51,670 bases of DNA from assembly GCA_904419285.1 (NCBI GenBank), contig CAJFQZ010000019.1, positions 1 to 51,670 on the forward strand. Direction: 5' to 3'. This DNA comes from Lachnospiraceae bacterium UBA1818 (lineage in GTDB: Bacteria > Bacillota > Clostridia > Lachnospirales > Lachnospiraceae). The translations under genes and the position numbers were made by a program. A model generated the notes under the pieces. It had not been told where the DNA came from. It saw only the letters and a program-made list of their open reading frames with translations, and ran no database searches. Each line of letters starts with the position of its first letter. Within the stretch, counting starts at the first letter, position 1. Below are positions 6,800 through 47,740 of this stretch, piece by piece.

Positions 6800-7810
6800 T
6801 TACAGCAGATGGATGCCGTTTTCGCGGGCGCGGACAGTGACATCTTCCGGCCACAGGGAAGACTGTACTTCGCCGATGTGAGCCTTCCTTAAATAGTACA
6901 TACAGATGCGGGACTGTCCGATGCCGCCGCCTACGGTGTAAGGGAGTTCTCCGTTTAACAGAGATTTCTGGAACGGAAGCTCTGCACGTTCTTCGCATCC
7001 TGCGATCTTAAGCTGCCGGCGGAGAGATTCTTCATCCACACGGATTCCCATGGAAGAGAGCTCCAGGCCCATATCAAGGACAGGATAATATACGATGATA
7101 TCTCCGTTCAATTCCCAGTCGTCGTAGTCCGGTGCGCGTCCGTCGTGCTTCTCGCCGGAAGCAAGCACCTTGCCGATCTGAGAGATGAAGACAGCGCCTT
7201 TGTCGCGGGCGATGACGGTTTCCCTTTCCTTTGGCGTGAGGTTCGGATACAGATCCTCAAGTTCCTGGGAAGTAATGAAGAAAATGTCATCCGGGAGCAG
7301 AGGCTCGATGTAGTTGTACCTTCTGGATATGTAGTTTTCCGTATCTTTCAGGGCGCTGTATACTTTGCGTACAGTATACTCAAGAGTTTCCATGTTGCGC
7401 TCTTCTCTGGAGATGATCTTCTCCCAGTCCCATTGATCCACATAGAGTGAGTGGATGTTGTCTGTATCTTCGTCGCGGCGGATGGCGCTCATGTCCGTAT
7501 ACAGACCCTCACCGGAATGGAACCCGTAGTTTTTCAGAGCGTAGCGCTTCCATTTTGCAAGAGAATGGACGATCTCGGCAGTCGCATCATCCTGTTCTTT
7601 GATCCCGAAGGATACCGGGCGCTCCACACCGTTCAGATTGTCGTTCATGCCGGTCTCAGGGCGTACGAACAGCGGAGCTGAAACACGGGTCAGGTGCAGC
7701 GATTTGGCAAGAGCCCGCTCAAAATGATCTTTTACTTCCTTGATGGCAACTTCCGTCTCACGGATGGTGAGCGGGGCAGAATAGCCTTCCGGAATTTTTA
7801 ACTGTTCCAT
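6800..7810 (-). CDS. asnA: Aspartate-ammonia ligase (asparagine synthetase A)
   Basis: The 336-residue protein is of normal AsnA length. It makes asparagine from aspartate, ammonia and ATP through an aspartyl-adenylate, with a class II aminoacyl-tRNA-synthetase-like fold. Signature parts are V-S-A-P-L-F-V near 46, D-N-L-N-G-V-E-R-P-V, H-S-L-Y-V-D-Q-W-D-W-E near 120-130, and the C-terminal G-G-G-I-G-Q-S-R motif. The start has AAGGAG in the leader, and a clear promoter lies about 40 bases upstream. It is monocistronic except for possible read-through into the MFS gene. Confidence 0.96.
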   Translation of the reverse strand: MEQLKIPEGYSAPLTIRETEVAIKEVKDHFERALAKSLHLTRVSAPLFVRPETGMNDNLNGVERPVSFGIKEQDDATAEIVHSLAKWKRYALKNYGFHSGEGLYTDMSAIRRDEDTDNIHSLYVDQWDWEKIISREERNMETLEYTVRKVYSALKDTENYISRRYNYIEPLLPDDIFFITSQELEDLYPNLTPKERETVIARDKGAVFISQIGKVLASGEKHDGRAPDYDDWELNGDIIVYYPVLDMGLELSSMGIRVDEESLRRQLKIAGCEERAELPFQKSLLNGELPYTVGGGIGQSRICMYYLRKAHIGEVQSSLWPEDVTVRARENGIHLL

Positions 7811-7988: not shown

Positions 7989-8017
7989 TTGACAAATGGA
8001 GAGTAAAGAGTTATTAT
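7989..8017 (+). promoter_or_regulatory. Strong sigma-A promoter of a non-coding transcript
   Basis: TTGACA (7989-7994), a 17-base spacer, then TATTAT (8012-8017); an overlapping TATAAT is at 8015-8020. No reading frame follows before the terminator at 8356-8403, so it drives an RNA rather than a protein. Confidence 0.75.
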
Positions 8018-8024
8018 AATGACA

Positions 8025-8403
8025 ACAAATAAAACAGATTGAACAATCAATTAAAAAAGAATATAAAAGAGATTCGAAAGAATAAAAGTTATATTCTTCT
8101 TTAAAAGAAAATTCAAGAAAGTTTTATTTCACCTGAAGGATGTCGTGATTGACAGATGGGTAATCAGATATAGAGAAATATCATAATGACGAGAAAGTTA
8201 TGAGAGAGGTAAAATCTATATCAGGGAAGAAGATTATCGATAGGTCAAAGTCCAGCAGGAATCTAAGAATAGGAGGTACGGACCGCCGGGAACATAAGTT
8301 AATCTATCAGAAAAAGGTAGAAAGAGGTAAAAAAGAATGATAGAAATATCAAAGTGAAGATGGATGCTGATCGGGTAAGTGATTGGTGTCCATCTTCTTT
8401 TTT
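8025..8403 (+). ncRNA. Putative ~380-nt structured non-coding RNA
   Basis: The region has a promoter in front, a strong terminator behind and no plausible open reading frame. It is AT-rich yet contains many paired segments: GATTG-aa-CAATC near 8038-8049, a perfect 10-bp pair AAGAATATAA/TTATATTCTT (about 8057-8099), GATAT-agagaa-ATATC near 8167-8182, CTATCA/TGATAG closing roughly 8304-8344, and a GC-rich GGTACGGACCGCC core near 8275. The length and the purine-rich loops resemble the large structured RNAs found in Clostridia (raiA RNA is one family to test), but I do not recognise a family with certainty. The next gene, a WYL regulator, has its own promoter, so this is an independent unit. Confidence 0.6.
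8356..8403 (+). terminator. Terminator of the non-coding transcript
   Basis: GAAGATGG (8356-8363) pairs with CCATCTTC (8390-8397), and six T residues follow. The 26-base loop can fold further. Confidence 0.85.
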
Positions 8404-8490: not shown

Positions 8491-8519
8491 TTGTAATCCG
8501 TAAAAAAAATTGATAGAAT
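8491..8519 (+). promoter_or_regulatory. Promoter of the WYL regulator gene
   Basis: TTGTAA (8491-8496), a 17-base spacer containing an A tract, and TAGAAT (8514-8519), 68 bases before the start codon. Confidence 0.6.
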
Positions 8520-8587: not shown

Positions 8588-9610
8588 ATGGCAAAGAGCA
8601 GTAATCAAAAAGTAAAGATCCTTTATCTGATGCGCCTGTTTCAGGAAGAGTCAGATGAGGATCATCCGTTTTCAAGAAAAGAGCTGGAAGAAAGACTGAG
8701 CAGTCTGGGGATCCATGCTGAGAGAAAAAGCCTGTATCATGATATTGAAACCCTGAAAACATTCGGGATGGATATTACATACAGAAAGACACCGCCGGAG
8801 GGCTACTATCTGGCAGGCCGGGATTTTGAGCTTGCGGAACTGAAGCTTCTGGTAGACGCGGTACAGTCTTCAAAATTTATCACAGAGAAGAAGTCCGCCA
8901 GTCTGATCAAGAAGATCGAGCGTCTCGCAAGCAGGTATGAGGCAGGGCAGCTGCAGCGGCAGGTTGTCGTTTCAGACAGGATCAAGACCATGAACGAAAG
9001 TATCTATTATAATGTGGATAAGCTCAATTCCGCGATCGCTTCAAATCAGCAGATCCTGTTTAAATATTTTGAGTGGACCATATCGAAAGAGATCCGGCTC
9101 AAAAAGAACGGCAGCCCATATCATGTGAGCCCATGGGCTCTGACCTGGGACAACGAAAACTATTATCTCATCGGATATGATATGGACGCAGGAAAGATGA
9201 AGCACTTCCGCGTAGACAAAATGCTCCATATCGAGCTGCAGGATCAGCCGAGGGAAGGAAGAGAAGAATTTGGACGCTTTGATCTGGCTCAGTATACAAA
9301 ACGTACATTTTCGATGTTCGGCGGGGCGGAAGAAAAGGTGCGGATCCGATTCCCGAATAAGTACGTGGGAGTTGTGATCGACCGATTTGGAAAAGATGTA
9401 CCTCTTCGTCCGGACGGCAATGAAAACTTTATCGCCCGGGTCGATGTGGCGGTCAGTGAGCAGTTTTACGGCTGGATCACCGGACTTGGCCGGGAAGTGA
9501 AGATACTTTCACCGGACTGGGTGGCCGGTGAATATAAAAGTCTTCTGAATGATCTTGGAAGGATGTACAGCGAAGAGGACGATGCGCACAGGCGCGGGGA
9601 ATGCCGGTGA
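8588..9610 (+). CDS. WYL-domain transcriptional regulator
   Basis: The 340-residue protein has an N-terminal winged helix-turn-helix (about 8-75; K-I-L-Y-L-M-R-L-F then S-R-K-E-L-E-E-R-L), a linker helix, a WYL sensor domain (about 140-225; the Y-H-V-S-P-W-A-L-T-W-D and Y-Y-L-I-G-Y-D strands are typical) and a C-terminal WCX extension. WYL regulators often sense nucleic acids or nucleotides and control stress or defence genes; no target is visible here. GGGAG lies before the start. The neighbours (an ncRNA upstream, an acidic membrane protein 48 bases downstream) give no pathway. Confidence 0.88.
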   Translation: MAKSSNQKVKILYLMRLFQEESDEDHPFSRKELEERLSSLGIHAERKSLYHDIETLKTFGMDITYRKTPPEGYYLAGRDFELAELKLLVDAVQSSKFITEKKSASLIKKIERLASRYEAGQLQRQVVVSDRIKTMNESIYYNVDKLNSAIASNQQILFKYFEWTISKEIRLKKNGSPYHVSPWALTWDNENYYLIGYDMDAGKMKHFRVDKMLHIELQDQPREGREEFGRFDLAQYTKRTFSMFGGAEEKVRIRFPNKYVGVVIDRFGKDVPLRPDGNENFIARVDVAVSEQFYGWITGLGREVKILSPDWVAGEYKSLLNDLGRMYSEEDDAHRRGECR

Positions 9611-9658: not shown

Positions 9659-10834
9659 ATGAATGTGAATGAAATACTGGAACAGATACAGGATTTTGAT
9701 TTGAATTCCGTGCTTTCTGAACTTGGGAAAAGCAGCCATGTGCTGACGCAGGCGGAGATCATCGTTCTTGCGGCCGCGGCGGTCGTGGGAATCCTGATCG
9801 GAATGTTCGGATTGAGGATCGTGCGCTTCTGGGCAGGCCTGCTGGGGTTCCTCGCAGGACTTGCGGGAGGAACTTATGCGGCGTCTCTGGCGGGACTTGA
9901 TCCTGTCTACGCCTGGATACCAGGGCTGGTGCTTGGAATCGTGCTGGCAGTGCTTGGAGCAAAATTGTACCGGTTCGGTGTGTTTATGACTTCATGGATA
10001 GCGGTGAGCGCGGTCTGTCAATATGCGGTCCGTCCGTCAGACTGGATCTGGACGGCAGCGTGTGCGGCGGCAGGGCTGGTGTTCGCTCTGTTTGCGATCA
10101 AATTTGTAAAAGCGATAACCATACTTGCAACAGCTGTGTTCGGTGCAGCGATCTCCGGAACGGCGCTTTACTATCTTCTGCCGCTTAAGTGGGAATGGTT
10201 CCATATACTGCTGTGTACGGCTCTCGGCATACTGGGTGCACTTGTTCAGATCCTGTTTGTATCAGGCAGGCGCAAGAGACAAAATCTGGAGAAAGCTGCA
10301 GAGATACGGAAGACCCATTCTACGGAAAATGAGGTGGAAAAGGCAAGGGCGCTTGTCGATGTTCTGGAAAAGGAAGAGGAGTCTGAGGAACCCGAGTTCC
10401 TGGATGAGGATCTTTTCCTGGACGATGAGGACGATGAGGAATCGGAATTTGCCGGTGAGGAGGAGTTCGAAGACGAAGGAGCTCTGTACGAGGAGGAGCC
10501 TGACGGAAGCGAATACTTTGAAGAGTATGAAGAATCCGAGGAATATGAATATCCGGACGATGAGGGAGAATCTGACGAATATGAATATTTCGATGAAGAT
10601 GAGGAGTCCGGAGAATACGAATATTCGGAGGAAGGCGGCGAACCCGAAGAGTATGAATACTTTGATGATGAGGAATACTCTGAAGAGGACGACTATCTGG
10701 ATGATGAAGACGAGCCGGATGACGAAGCAGATGATATAGAATATCTGGATGACGATGATCTGGATGAAACGGATTACCTGGATGATCTGGATGATATAGA
10801 ATATCTGGATGACGAATTTGACGAAAAAAAATAG
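9659..10834 (+). CDS. TMEM198/DUF4203-like membrane protein with a long acidic tail
   Basis: 391 residues. The first 35 are soluble, then about seven membrane helices (roughly 36-205; G-L-R-I-V-R-F-W-A-G-L-L-G-F-L-A-G and similar glycine-rich segments) match the DUF4203/TMEM198 pattern. Residues from about 240 to the end are almost entirely Asp, Glu and Tyr, with recurring E-Y-E-Y, Y-F-D-E and Y-L-D-D units. The tail probably faces the cytoplasm or cell surface as a flexible polyanion; binding of divalent cations or basic partners is a guess. It is 48 bases after the WYL gene and may share its transcript. GAGGTGGAG precedes the start. Confidence 0.75.
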   Translation: MNVNEILEQIQDFDLNSVLSELGKSSHVLTQAEIIVLAAAAVVGILIGMFGLRIVRFWAGLLGFLAGLAGGTYAASLAGLDPVYAWIPGLVLGIVLAVLGAKLYRFGVFMTSWIAVSAVCQYAVRPSDWIWTAACAAAGLVFALFAIKFVKAITILATAVFGAAISGTALYYLLPLKWEWFHILLCTALGILGALVQILFVSGRRKRQNLEKAAEIRKTHSTENEVEKARALVDVLEKEEESEEPEFLDEDLFLDDEDDEESEFAGEEEFEDEGALYEEEPDGSEYFEEYEESEEYEYPDDEGESDEYEYFDEDEESGEYEYSEEGGEPEEYEYFDDEEYSEEDDYLDDEDEPDDEADDIEYLDDDDLDETDYLDDLDDIEYLDDEFDEKK

Positions 10835-11172: not shown

Positions 11173-13266
11173 TTATTGTCCGAAATATCCTGCCGTGATA
11201 TTTCTTACTTTCTGTGTTACATAGCTGCTTCCGCCCTTATCTTTGACGTCTTCAACCATGCCGACGACCGCGATCGGAGTAGCTGTGCTGTCATCTGCGG
11301 TCTCGCAGATGAACCATCCTCGCTCAATGCCGTCCGTGTCGTCCTGGCTTTCCTTGATCTCTGCTGTTCCGGTTTTCCCGAGGAGGGTGACTCCGTCGAT
11401 TTTTGCTGATGCGCCGGTTCCGGAAGGATTTTCAATGACCTGTATGAGATCATTTTTTACAGTCTCGGCAGCTGCGGCGGAGACGACCTGTTCTTTCCAG
11501 ATCTGTCCGGTATAGCCTTCCTGGTAAGCGAGTACAGGCTGTATCATGCTTCCGTTGTTGACGAACATAGAATACATGGAAAGCAGGTGGACCGGATTGA
11601 CAAGGAGCTGACCCTGGCCATAGCCGGTATCTGCAAGCTGAATGTCTGAGTCGATCTTGTCATCGTCGTCATAGGTTGATGCGCTGAGGCTCAGCTCAAA
11701 AGGAATTTCTTCATTAAATCCCATGGCTTTAAATTTACTGATCATGGTATCCGCTCCGATATTCAGGGCAGCGCGTGCAAAGTATATGTTATCTGAGTAG
11801 ACGAGTGCGTTTTCAAGGTTTACCTGATCGCCGTAATCCGTCAAAGTGGTAACATAGTAATTTCCCCAGCTTGCGTCTTTCTGCCAGCTCAGGCCGACAT
11901 ATCCCAGATTCTGTTCCGGGTCAATAGCTCCGCTGTCTACGCCGATCGCAGCTGTGAGCGCCTTGAAGGTGGAACCGGGAACCCATGTGCTCTGGAATCG
12001 GTTGCTGAGGGGTGTGTCTTCTGCGCTGCTCAGTTCGTTCCATCTCTCGTCGGACATTCCCATGATGAATTCGTTGGGATCATATCCGGGGGTGCTGACG
12101 AGCGCGAGCACTTCTCCTGTCTTTGGGTTCATGGCGGCTGCGGTGCCCGGATCAGATGCAAACTGTTCATATGCAGACTGCTGCAGGGAGGCGTCGATCG
12201 TCACGTAAACATCCTGACCGTTCTGCGCTTCCTGGGAGGCAAGTGTTTCGACGGTGTTTCCGTCCCCGTCGACGATAATGATGGAGGATCCGTCCACGGC
12301 GCGCAGCTGTTCTTCGCAGGCAAGTTCCAGTCCTGATTTTCCGATCATGCTGTTCGCATGATATCCCTGACCCTGCTTTTCTTCCAGGTCTTCGGCTGTT
12401 ACAGGCTGTATATAGCCGGTCAGATGTCCTGCAGCTGCGCCGAGCGGATAGACCCTGGCCTCCGCGTCGTTGATCAGGATTCCCGGGATCTGGAGAAGCT
12501 GGGCTTCGGTCTCTGCGTCATCTTTGGAGATCTGTTTCAGGGGGACAAAGGTGTCATCCTGTACATAGGAAGCATTCAGGCTGTCCGTGATATCCTCTGC
12601 GCTCAATCCGAGAAGTTCTGCGATCTTTGCAATATCTGCCTCAGGATCCGCATTCATCTTGCCCGGCACAAGCCCCACTTCGGATACAGTTCCCTGGGTC
12701 GCGAGCGCGGTGCCGTTCCGGTCGTATATACTTCCACGCTTCGCGGTCTCTGTCTCCACCCGCACTTTGTAATCATCCTGGAGAGAGGGAAAGATCAGTG
12801 TGGAATCCCAGTTGATCCTGTAGTCTCCATCGCTGTTTTTCTCGAGAGTCATCTGGTTGTCAAAAGTGACGGCGCCCGCCGATGTATCCATGGAAGTGCT
12901 GTAAGTGACGGTCTCTGTCTTTTTGGAGGAGGCGGAATCCTTGTCAGGAAGCTTGATCTTGATATCTGACGCTTCGATGCCTTCATAAATATTCTGGTTG
13001 CGCGCTGTAAAATCTTCTTCGCTGATAGAATCCTGGGAAGAATCGCTGAGAAGACCGTACATTTCATCGTATTTCCCATCATTCAAAAGGGAAAAGTACT
13101 CTTTTACGGTGTCTTCCGGCACGGGACGGCGGCTCAGCATCCACCAGACAAAGAAGCTGATGCCTGCGCACAGCAGGACTGCCAGGATGATGATCAGCGG
13201 AATCAGCCATCTCCGGGGATGAGGCGCACGCCTTTTTTTCTTTTTTAAATACTGTTTTCTTGTCAT
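11173..13266 (-). CDS. Class B penicillin-binding protein with MecA-type N-terminal domain
   Basis: A 697-residue peptidoglycan D,D-transpeptidase anchored by one N-terminal helix (about 18-43). Then come an NTF2-like MecA_N domain (about 50-165), a PBP dimerisation domain beginning K-R-G-S-I-Y-D-R-N-G near 185, and the transpeptidase domain. Catalytic motifs are S432-T-F-K435, S491-D-N and K631-T-G-T-A-E. The plan equals that of MecA/PBP2a- and PBP3-like enzymes of Firmicutes; low beta-lactam affinity is possible but not shown. AGGAGG lies before the start, and the gene has its own promoter and terminator. There is no linked BlaR/MecR regulator. Confidence 0.92.
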   Translation of the reverse strand: MTRKQYLKKKKRRAPHPRRWLIPLIIILAVLLCAGISFFVWWMLSRRPVPEDTVKEYFSLLNDGKYDEMYGLLSDSSQDSISEEDFTARNQNIYEGIEASDIKIKLPDKDSASSKKTETVTYSTSMDTSAGAVTFDNQMTLEKNSDGDYRINWDSTLIFPSLQDDYKVRVETETAKRGSIYDRNGTALATQGTVSEVGLVPGKMNADPEADIAKIAELLGLSAEDITDSLNASYVQDDTFVPLKQISKDDAETEAQLLQIPGILINDAEARVYPLGAAAGHLTGYIQPVTAEDLEEKQGQGYHANSMIGKSGLELACEEQLRAVDGSSIIIVDGDGNTVETLASQEAQNGQDVYVTIDASLQQSAYEQFASDPGTAAAMNPKTGEVLALVSTPGYDPNEFIMGMSDERWNELSSAEDTPLSNRFQSTWVPGSTFKALTAAIGVDSGAIDPEQNLGYVGLSWQKDASWGNYYVTTLTDYGDQVNLENALVYSDNIYFARAALNIGADTMISKFKAMGFNEEIPFELSLSASTYDDDDKIDSDIQLADTGYGQGQLLVNPVHLLSMYSMFVNNGSMIQPVLAYQEGYTGQIWKEQVVSAAAAETVKNDLIQVIENPSGTGASAKIDGVTLLGKTGTAEIKESQDDTDGIERGWFICETADDSTATPIAVVGMVEDVKDKGGSSYVTQKVRNITAGYFGQ

Positions 13267-47413: not shown

Positions 47414-47481
47414 CTAAAAATGAACATATGCATATTTTCATATGGATGCATGCCGGCATCCGTTTGTCATGAAGTTGATAT

Positions 47482-47560
47482 GCCCTGTCCTTTTGCCTGA
47501 GAGATCAGACGGCGCGGCCGTCCTTACACCTTCGGCGCTCATTTTTCAGAGACTCTCCAG
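47482..47560 (-). promoter_or_regulatory. Glycine riboswitch (single aptamer)
   Basis: On the minus strand the aptamer reads GGAGAGTCTC..., then GCCGAAGG, and later CTCTCAGGCAAAAGGACAG; these are the hallmark segments of the gcvT-type motif. A second full aptamer is not seen. For an uptake gene the switch is expected to be an OFF switch; the terminator at 47381-47413 fits this. Confidence 0.95.
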
Positions 47561-47594
47561 AGATCCATCTCATATATACGAGATGAACGTATCT

Positions 47595-47623
47595 ATCCTA
47601 TCACAATGTTTTTGCTTTTTCAA
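47595..47623 (-). promoter_or_regulatory. Promoter of the riboswitch-symporter transcript
   Basis: On the minus strand TTGAAA (47623-47618), a 17-base spacer, TAGGAT (47600-47595). The start falls about 30 bases before the aptamer. Confidence 0.7.
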
Positions 47624-47633
47624 GAGAAAAATA

Positions 47634-47666
47634 AAAACGCTGAAATAAAATACATTTCAGCGTTTT
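47634..47666 (-). terminator. Terminator of the tRNA-Thr gene
   Basis: A 13-bp stem (AAAACGCTGAAAT with ATTTCAGCGTTTT), followed on the minus strand by a T-rich run. Confidence 0.85.
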
Positions 47667-47667
47667 A

Positions 47668-47740
47668 AGCCGGAAATCGGACTTGAACCGACGACCCCTT
47701 CATTACGAGTGAAGTGCTCTACCGACTGAGCTATTCCGGC
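47668..47740 (-). tRNA. tRNA-Thr (anticodon CGU)
   Basis: The cloverleaf is complete on the minus strand: acceptor GCCGGAA/TTCCGGC, D arm GCTC...GAGC, anticodon arm CTTCA-CTCGTAA-TGAAG, and T arm with GGTTCAAGTCC. The anticodon CGT (plus-strand 47705-47707) reads ACG. The discriminator is U; CCA is not encoded and must be added. Confidence 0.95.

Follow-up and report, generated by a model that had tools for sequence, protein, structure and literature searches.

A structured RNA gene family of Lachnospiraceae with a start-less Shine-Dalgarno module and a terminal micro-ORF, which may engage ribosomes

The region spanning 8024–8403 on the plus strand of the window (the whole stretch of 51,670 nucleotides from Lachnospiraceae bacterium UBA1818 that was analysed here) contains a predicted RNA gene of about 380 nt. 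It is almost certainly real, conserved and structured, and the family to which it belongs is not represented in Rfam. Going by its sequence relatives, the gene is a member of an undescribed RNA family of Lachnospiraceae. It stands alone between asnA (aspartate-ammonia ligase; 6800–7810, minus strand) upstream and a gene for a WYL/WCX-domain regulator (8588–9610, plus strand) downstream, both of them separate from it, and its two ends were set from the promoter and the 3′ hairpin. The consensus promoter named in a preliminary description of this DNA is present (7989–8017, plus strand): it is of the sigma-70 type, with TTGACA at 7989–7994, a spacer of 17 nt and TATTAT at 8012–8017, agrees with the consensus at 11 of 12 positions and was kept in the genus alignment. 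The strong terminator of the same description is found in this genome, where a hairpin of 18 pairs (8356–8397) followed by TTTTTT makes a terminator-like element (8356–8403, plus strand), but it does not extend to the relatives in that form: the hairpin is kept in the genus and the T-run is not, since 12 of 28 genus copies have at least five T in the final 8 nt sampled downstream of the hairpin and the other 16 have a weak run. In the relatives, termination may thus be weaker, or the end may be processed. The 3′ hairpins of several loci (for example L107, L165 and L170) contain AUC/GAU elements, such as GGUAUCA...UGAUACC, which by eye seemed to be kept across genera beyond the need of a terminator.

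The minimum free energy of the RNA locus was -94.3 kcal/mol (z -7.0), and none of 100 shuffled sequences was equally stable. The stems listed in the preliminary description were all located. The 10-bp AT stem of AAGAATATAA (8057–8066) with TTATATTCTT (8089–8098) lies in a variable 5′ extension that is missing from 14 of 28 genus copies; GATATAG at 8167 faces CTATATC at 8216; and CTATCA (8304–8309) faces TGATAG (8338–8343), a pairing (CUAUCA/UGAUAG in the RNA; 8304–8343, plus strand) that is near-invariant in the genus and hence outside the reach of covariation. The predicted fold further contains, on the plus strand, a 5′ hairpin P1 with a variable inner part (8027–8129), in which AAATAAAAC at 8027–8035 pairs with GTTTTATTT at 8121–8129, and the helices P2 (8132–8139/8252–8259), P3 (8157–8165/8232–8240) and P4 (8167–8174/8215–8222), which together span 8132–8259 and for which covariation was scored over the whole structure.

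The conservation of the locus was monitored in the genus Mediterraneibacter, where a DNA search returned a match in 31 of the 36 other genomes (in G001 and G017 by short pieces only), along with six matches of 30–42 nt in other families that are probably due to chance. The alignments A1 and A2 were made from 28 near-complete copies of 30 loci, L009 and L027 being cut by contig ends. In the core alignment, both partners had changed in 17 pairs; cells of this kind numbered 69, against 22.2 in shuffles. When the partner columns were slid by 1–3 positions, the paired cells fell from 95% to 32–42%. In A2, further pair types showed no excess over shuffles (36 versus 34.5). Most of the covariation was found in P2 and P3, and the innermost hairpin, the module hairpin described below and the CUAUCA/UGAUAG pairing vary too little within the genus for covariation testing. 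The paired changes support the RNA fold, and the large structured RNA proposed in the preliminary description is borne out as a structured RNA gene by the fold z of -7.0 and the covariation; it is not purely non-coding, as the locus ends in a conserved micro-ORF that looks translated.

Homologues were found across Lachnospiraceae. A covariance model of the core of the RNA (R1, 222 positions) matched 52 of 299 family genomes (one per genus, own genome included), often through a block of about 40 nt only, and in 196 genomes drawn from the order, of which at least 22 belong to the family, it gave three matches, all in Lachnospiraceae. This block is a module that reads roughly UCUAAGnAAAGGAGGUACGGACCACCrArAACrUAAGuUU. 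The model of the module (R2), built from 94 modules picked largely by exact pattern and with its first row (L055) 12 nt out of register, matched 98 of 299 Lachnospiraceae genera (one genome per genus) and gave two matches, both in Lachnospiraceae, in 196 genomes drawn from the class. Outside Lachnospiraceae, neither core nor module was found in these two draws of 196 genomes (R1 in the order, R2 in the class). Covariance searches of more than 40 genomes were run with stricter filters, by which weak matches are lost, and the E-values of such home-made models are rough. An exact-pattern scan of named genomes returned at least 120 stretches (80 listed by name) and 10 viral stretches, from which 74 sites with a local G+C content below 50% were kept and the others, including all 10 viral stretches, were left aside. 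The records of some kept sites were named only Clostridiales, Eubacteriales or uncultured bacterium; among the matches listed, AT-rich kept sites were found in Mediterraneibacter, Anaerostipes, Anaerobutyricum hallii, Blautia, Enterocloster, Pseudobutyrivibrio, Sporofaciens, Parablautia, Eisenbergiella, Hungatella and Agathobacter. Micro-ORFs were counted at 71 of the 74 sites (the second L146 site and stretches shorter than 150 nt were left out), and promoters and pairing were analysed at 72. A near-consensus promoter was found within 400 nt upstream of the first module at 57 of 72 other loci among the matches listed, against 0.1 expected from shuffles. One Eubacteriales metagenome-assembled genome (L146) carries two RNA copies 852 nt apart in tandem, each with a module and a terminal micro-ORF (TTG GAC ...).

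The Rfam scan gave nothing at gathering level in the locus and only chance-level matches up to an E-value of 10, raiA not among them, and 20 relative loci had no match at gathering level; the suggestion of a possible new class agrees with this result, and a known Rfam family was rejected. In the whole window, the only matches at gathering level were a tRNA and a glycine riboswitch, both away from the RNA locus; at 47475–47740 on the minus strand, tRNA-Thr (CGT) lies beside a single glycine riboswitch aptamer. Searches of the main text of published papers gave no description of such an RNA in Lachnospiraceae. The thousands of candidates of PMC8040213 may include pieces of the RNA family.

The genes flanking the RNA vary and include those for MATE transporters, GH3 glycosidases, SHMT, a deacylase, a TIR protein and others. 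Some neighbours recur: four Enterocloster-type loci have MATE upstream, and three loci have GH3 downstream. In loci of the window's type, Pfam identified asnA upstream (L089 and L116) and WYL downstream (L089 and L205). The downstream gene may be on either strand and is on the opposite strand in many loci. Because the flanking genes differ and the downstream gene occurs on either strand, the RNA is not the leader of one gene. In the window, a promoter-like site TTGTAA-17-TAGAAT (8491–8519, plus strand; 9 of 12 consensus positions) is located ahead of the WYL gene, and several relatives have similar letters, TTGTCA/TAGAAT. Further along the window, an ORF of 391 amino acids behind the WYL gene (9659–10834, plus strand) had no Pfam family, and a penicillin-binding protein with MecA_N, dimerisation and transpeptidase domains is encoded at 11173–13266 on the minus strand.

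The preliminary description had pointed to a GC-rich core, and this is amended here to a Shine-Dalgarno hairpin lacking a start codon, which recurs as a tandem module in some relatives. The core module of the window's RNA (8260–8303, plus strand) carries this hairpin, GGAGGUACGGACCGCC, at 8272–8287. The module (AAAGGAGGUACGGACCACC) is thus a strong Shine-Dalgarno hairpin without a start codon, and it occurs up to eight times per RNA; the window's RNA has a single module, tandem modules mostly 50–64 nt apart are present in a minority of relatives, and in A. hallii the module is found eight times together with one start-bearing module. Its 5′ part, AAAGGAGGU, is fully complementary to the 16S rRNA tail. 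Among the matches listed, none of 123 start-less modules (116 distinct) had an NTG 4–13 nt after GGAGG, where ACC or GCC mostly stands instead, and all of 17 start-bearing modules (16 distinct: 8 TTG, 7 ATG, 1 GTG) had an NTG exactly at +9 after GGAGG; membership of a class was decided on the sequence itself (CC[AG][AC]C present or absent), which makes the zero of the first class partly a matter of definition, but not the fixed spacing and mixed starts of the second. Repeats account for 7 of the 123 modules and for 1 of the 17. That the property of a start codon was kept and its letters were not points to translation of the start-bearing class. The predicted net pairing to the 16S tail was -9.8 kcal/mol on average for the 123 modules among the matches listed. 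The same measure was -7.3 at 13 ORF starts taken from the window and -5.0 after the modules had been shuffled. The module hairpin itself (GG-A-GGU/ACC-R-CC), with a mean of -2.9 kcal/mol, should partly hide the Shine-Dalgarno sequence.

The preliminary description had found no frame in the locus. This holds for long frames, but not for a conserved Shine-Dalgarno sequence, AGAGGU (8323–8328, plus strand), and the ORF of six codons, MIEISK*, that follows it at 8337–8357 on the plus strand. The start codon lies 9 nt after GAGG, which is the spacing of all 16 distinct start-bearing modules of the relatives. The pattern M[IT]xISx-TGA, with codon 6 free, was found in 28 of 28 genus copies; in three other genera (L056, L057 and L058), the stop at the same position is TAA, TAG and TAA, respectively. 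A terminal micro-ORF, scored as a Shine-Dalgarno sequence and an NTG followed by no more than 10 codons, with the stop no further than 8 nt from a hairpin, was present at 52 of 71 loci among the matches listed, against 1.8 in shuffles. These 52 start with ATG (36), TTG (14) or GTG (2) and stop with TGA (25), TAA (16) or TAG (11). The remaining 19 of 71 loci failed the test, in some of them with the RNA end beyond the stretch examined. When the hairpin condition was removed, the excess of Shine-Dalgarno-led micro-ORFs was weak (120 versus 80 in shuffles, and 2 on the reverse strand, at 71 sites among the matches listed).

Fourteen of the 52 micro-ORFs are of the window type, and the 38 others encode 32 distinct peptides, for example MDEIV, MDSEVH, LDTEH, LDNEY and VDSIV. 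The 38 ORFs have 188 residues in frame, and the counts for frames 0, 1 and 2 were 70, 6 and 8 for D+E and 4, 28 and 28 for K+R, with 18 and 25 stops in frames 1 and 2. Without codon 2, which is mostly GAY, there were still 40 acidic and 3 basic residues of 150. Two acidic residues that are adjacent or one apart were found in 16 of the 32 distinct peptides. Because the acidity is confined to the reading frame, the micro-ORF peptides are probably translated; since it also persists without codon 2, the peptide or its codons are under selection.

A second conserved element is the hairpin CAUAA-UGACGAGAAAG-UUAUG (8182–8202, plus strand), which carries an 11-nt loop at 8187–8197 and of which the stem covaries across genera around the loop. 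It lies about 80 nt upstream of the module in copies of the Mediterraneibacter type and 75–420 nt downstream in several other genera. In alignment A4, 96% of stem cells pair, and the covariation score was 0.999 versus 0.269 in shuffles (25 distinct copies). A4 contains exact-loop hairpins only (25 of 32 distinct regex matches), so that the invariance of the loop arises partly by selection of the copies, and the pairs changed on both sides did not exceed shuffles (5 versus 4.0). The UGACGAGAAAG loop hairpin looks like a recognition site and is treated here as a putative one. A micro-ORF 'MTRKL' at 8186–8203, taken up as a possible second ORF, was dropped: across genera no stop is kept and the stem enclosing the loop covaries, so that the element was read as a structural hairpin. 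At 773–801 of L073, a further UGACGAGAAAG hairpin lies about 750 nt beyond a module and is perhaps part of another RNA.

A paralogue, RNA-B, was found in 22 of 37 genus genomes, including the own genome (G000, contig C29, about 12919–13135, which is 1438–1654 of L219), where it consists of a start-less module, the three-codon ORF MGR*, a terminal MDVVS* and a terminator-like hairpin. In all 22 copies, the start-less module is followed by GAGGUAYAGWCC-A-AUGGG, a varying codon 3 and a stop URA, the letters up to AUGGG being kept by choice, as they were part of the search pattern. The main type ends in MD[GV][IV][SI]* before a hairpin with a T-run (20 of 20 copies), and the other two copies (L222 and L226) carry arrays such as MGR*, MG*, MGR*. 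A pattern search of the genus for the hairpin followed by a start gave 28 sites in 26 of 37 genomes (22 RNA-B and 6 other), and a reversed control pattern gave 6. The candidate role of mRNAs sharing a module-like hairpin as targets was rejected, as an apparent longer gene follows hairpin and start codon at only one of the 28 sites (L224). The promoters of the RNA (window 8008–8017) and of RNA-B (L219 1422–1431) share GAGTTATTAT just before and over the -10 box, as if the two were co-regulated.

The stand-alone position, the strong promoter and the fold suggest an abundant trans-acting RNA, and the start-less ribosome sites point to the ribosome as its partner, as does the acidic micro-ORF with its end on the 3′ hairpin. 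In E. coli, ribosomes are reported in PMC11282234 to stall or dissociate when two early residues, adjacent or one apart, are acidic. On the start-less sites, the acidic micro-ORF and this parallel with stalling, the explanation we favour, though tentatively, is a trans-acting RNA that engages ribosomes as a decoy or a sensor. The RNA would be made in quantity and act in trans on ribosomes; its start-less modules would bind 30S subunits through the anti-Shine-Dalgarno sequence with no initiation following; and on the micro-ORF a ribosome would start, make a short acidic peptide of the pausing or destabilising sort and come to a halt at the 3′ hairpin. In this view the RNA would either act as a decoy for ribosomes or sense their state, which its 3′ end or lifetime would then report. 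Several findings stand against this model. Ribosome binding does not account for the UGACGAGAAAG loop or for the strictly kept loop of the module, which resemble a protein site, the module hairpin would partly hide the Shine-Dalgarno sequence, the excess of micro-ORFs without the hairpin condition is weak (120 versus 80), 19 of 71 loci failed the micro-ORF test, and acidic pairs occur in only 16 of 32 peptides. We know of no RNA class in which start-less Shine-Dalgarno hairpins are followed by a few-codon acidic ORF ending on the 3′ hairpin. The fuller proposal, that this is a new class in which start-less hairpins (arrays in some genera) capture small subunits, an acidic micro-ORF conserved at the peptide level pauses or drops ribosomes on the 3′ hairpin, and one RNA thereby both measures and buffers free ribosomes, is a possibility that we hold with still more reserve.

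The main rival, which we consider somewhat unlikely, is a protein sponge: an RNA-binding protein would be titrated by the hairpin GGAGGUACGGACCACC together with the UGACGAGAAAG loop, much as CsrA is by CsrB/RsmZ, and the micro-ORF would serve only to time or stabilise the RNA. The sponges for CsrA of the CsrB/RsmZ type have repeated hairpins with GGA in the loop. A likeness may lie in the GGA-loop hairpins, tandem in a minority of relatives (mostly 50–64 nt apart) and single in the window's RNA; the hairpin loop holds ANGGA (as ACGGA), and the sequences of module and loop are strictly conserved. However, the family differs by its terminal micro-ORF, and a sponge leaves peptides that are acidic in frame only without explanation; nor is a conserved mRNA target seen, a similar hairpin with a start standing before an apparent longer gene at only 1 of 28 genus sites (L224). 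A search of the window's genome (94% complete) turned up no csrA, and the gene was present in 46 of 98 module-positive and 107 of 201 module-negative genomes (Fisher p 0.33), so that a CsrA sponge as the general role was rejected. The varied neighbours and this lack of co-occurrence argue against a leader and against a CsrA sponge, respectively.

It is improbable that the RNA acts in cis, as a leader or attenuator whose micro-ORF, through its translation, would govern read-through into the gene that follows (in the window, that of the WYL regulator). Such a leader would account for the micro-ORF stop on a terminator-like hairpin, as in leader-peptide attenuation, and for the T-run being weak in 16 of 28 genus copies, and the acidic codons recall MgtL (PMC11282234). 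With the leader peptides of the MgtL type described there, the micro-ORF has in common the early acidic codons upstream of a termination point; it differs in having no conserved downstream gene, a hairpin directly at the stop and a peptide of about 5–7 residues. The downstream genes differ by genus and are on the opposite strand in many loci, although neighbours recur within groups (MATE, GH3), and no conserved regulated gene was found downstream among 30 neighbouring proteins of 24 loci. A leader of the WYL gene was rejected, because that gene has its own promoter-like site and the neighbours are not conserved.

Very little weight falls on a toxin RNA of the CreT kind, with a micro-ORF that would sequester a tRNA. 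As CreT is described in PMC8501985, both have a Shine-Dalgarno sequence, a few-codon micro-ORF and a stem-loop, and the strong Shine-Dalgarno sequence, start, few codons, stop and stem-loop as well as the MGx* arrays of L222 and L226 would fit such a toxin; here, however, the codons vary between copies, no doubled rare codon is kept as far as could be judged by reading, an acidic peptide is kept, start-less modules are present and the RNA is retained in 31 of 36 other genus genomes. Least probable of all is that the RNA belongs, in diverged form, to one of the large RNA classes already catalogued (raiA/ModT, OLE, ROOL or GOLLD): with raiA/ModT (RF03072), which PMC11706538 describes as trans-acting and without conserved neighbours, the RNA shares a stand-alone structured form of a few hundred nt in Bacillota, a sigmaA-type promoter and the lack of conserved neighbours, but the Rfam results given above for the locus and the 20 relative loci speak against any such class. 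The raiA/ModT covariance model itself had no match in the RNA locus, and the family differs further in being limited to Lachnospiraceae in the draws made. To our knowledge, ModT has neither tandem start-less Shine-Dalgarno modules nor a terminal micro-ORF. Tandem repeats between promoter and terminator are also a trait of the RNAs of type III toxin-antitoxin systems (ToxI), but no toxN-like gene was found here among the 30 neighbouring proteins scanned with Pfam and the window's neighbours.

Lachnospiraceae are among the commonest bacteria of the gut, and about a third of the sampled genera of the family (98 of 299) carry the module, yet the RNA has no Rfam match. If protein binding is its true role, the RNA would act as the sponge of a regulator still to be discovered; if ribosome engagement is, these bacteria would possess an RNA regulator of translation capacity.
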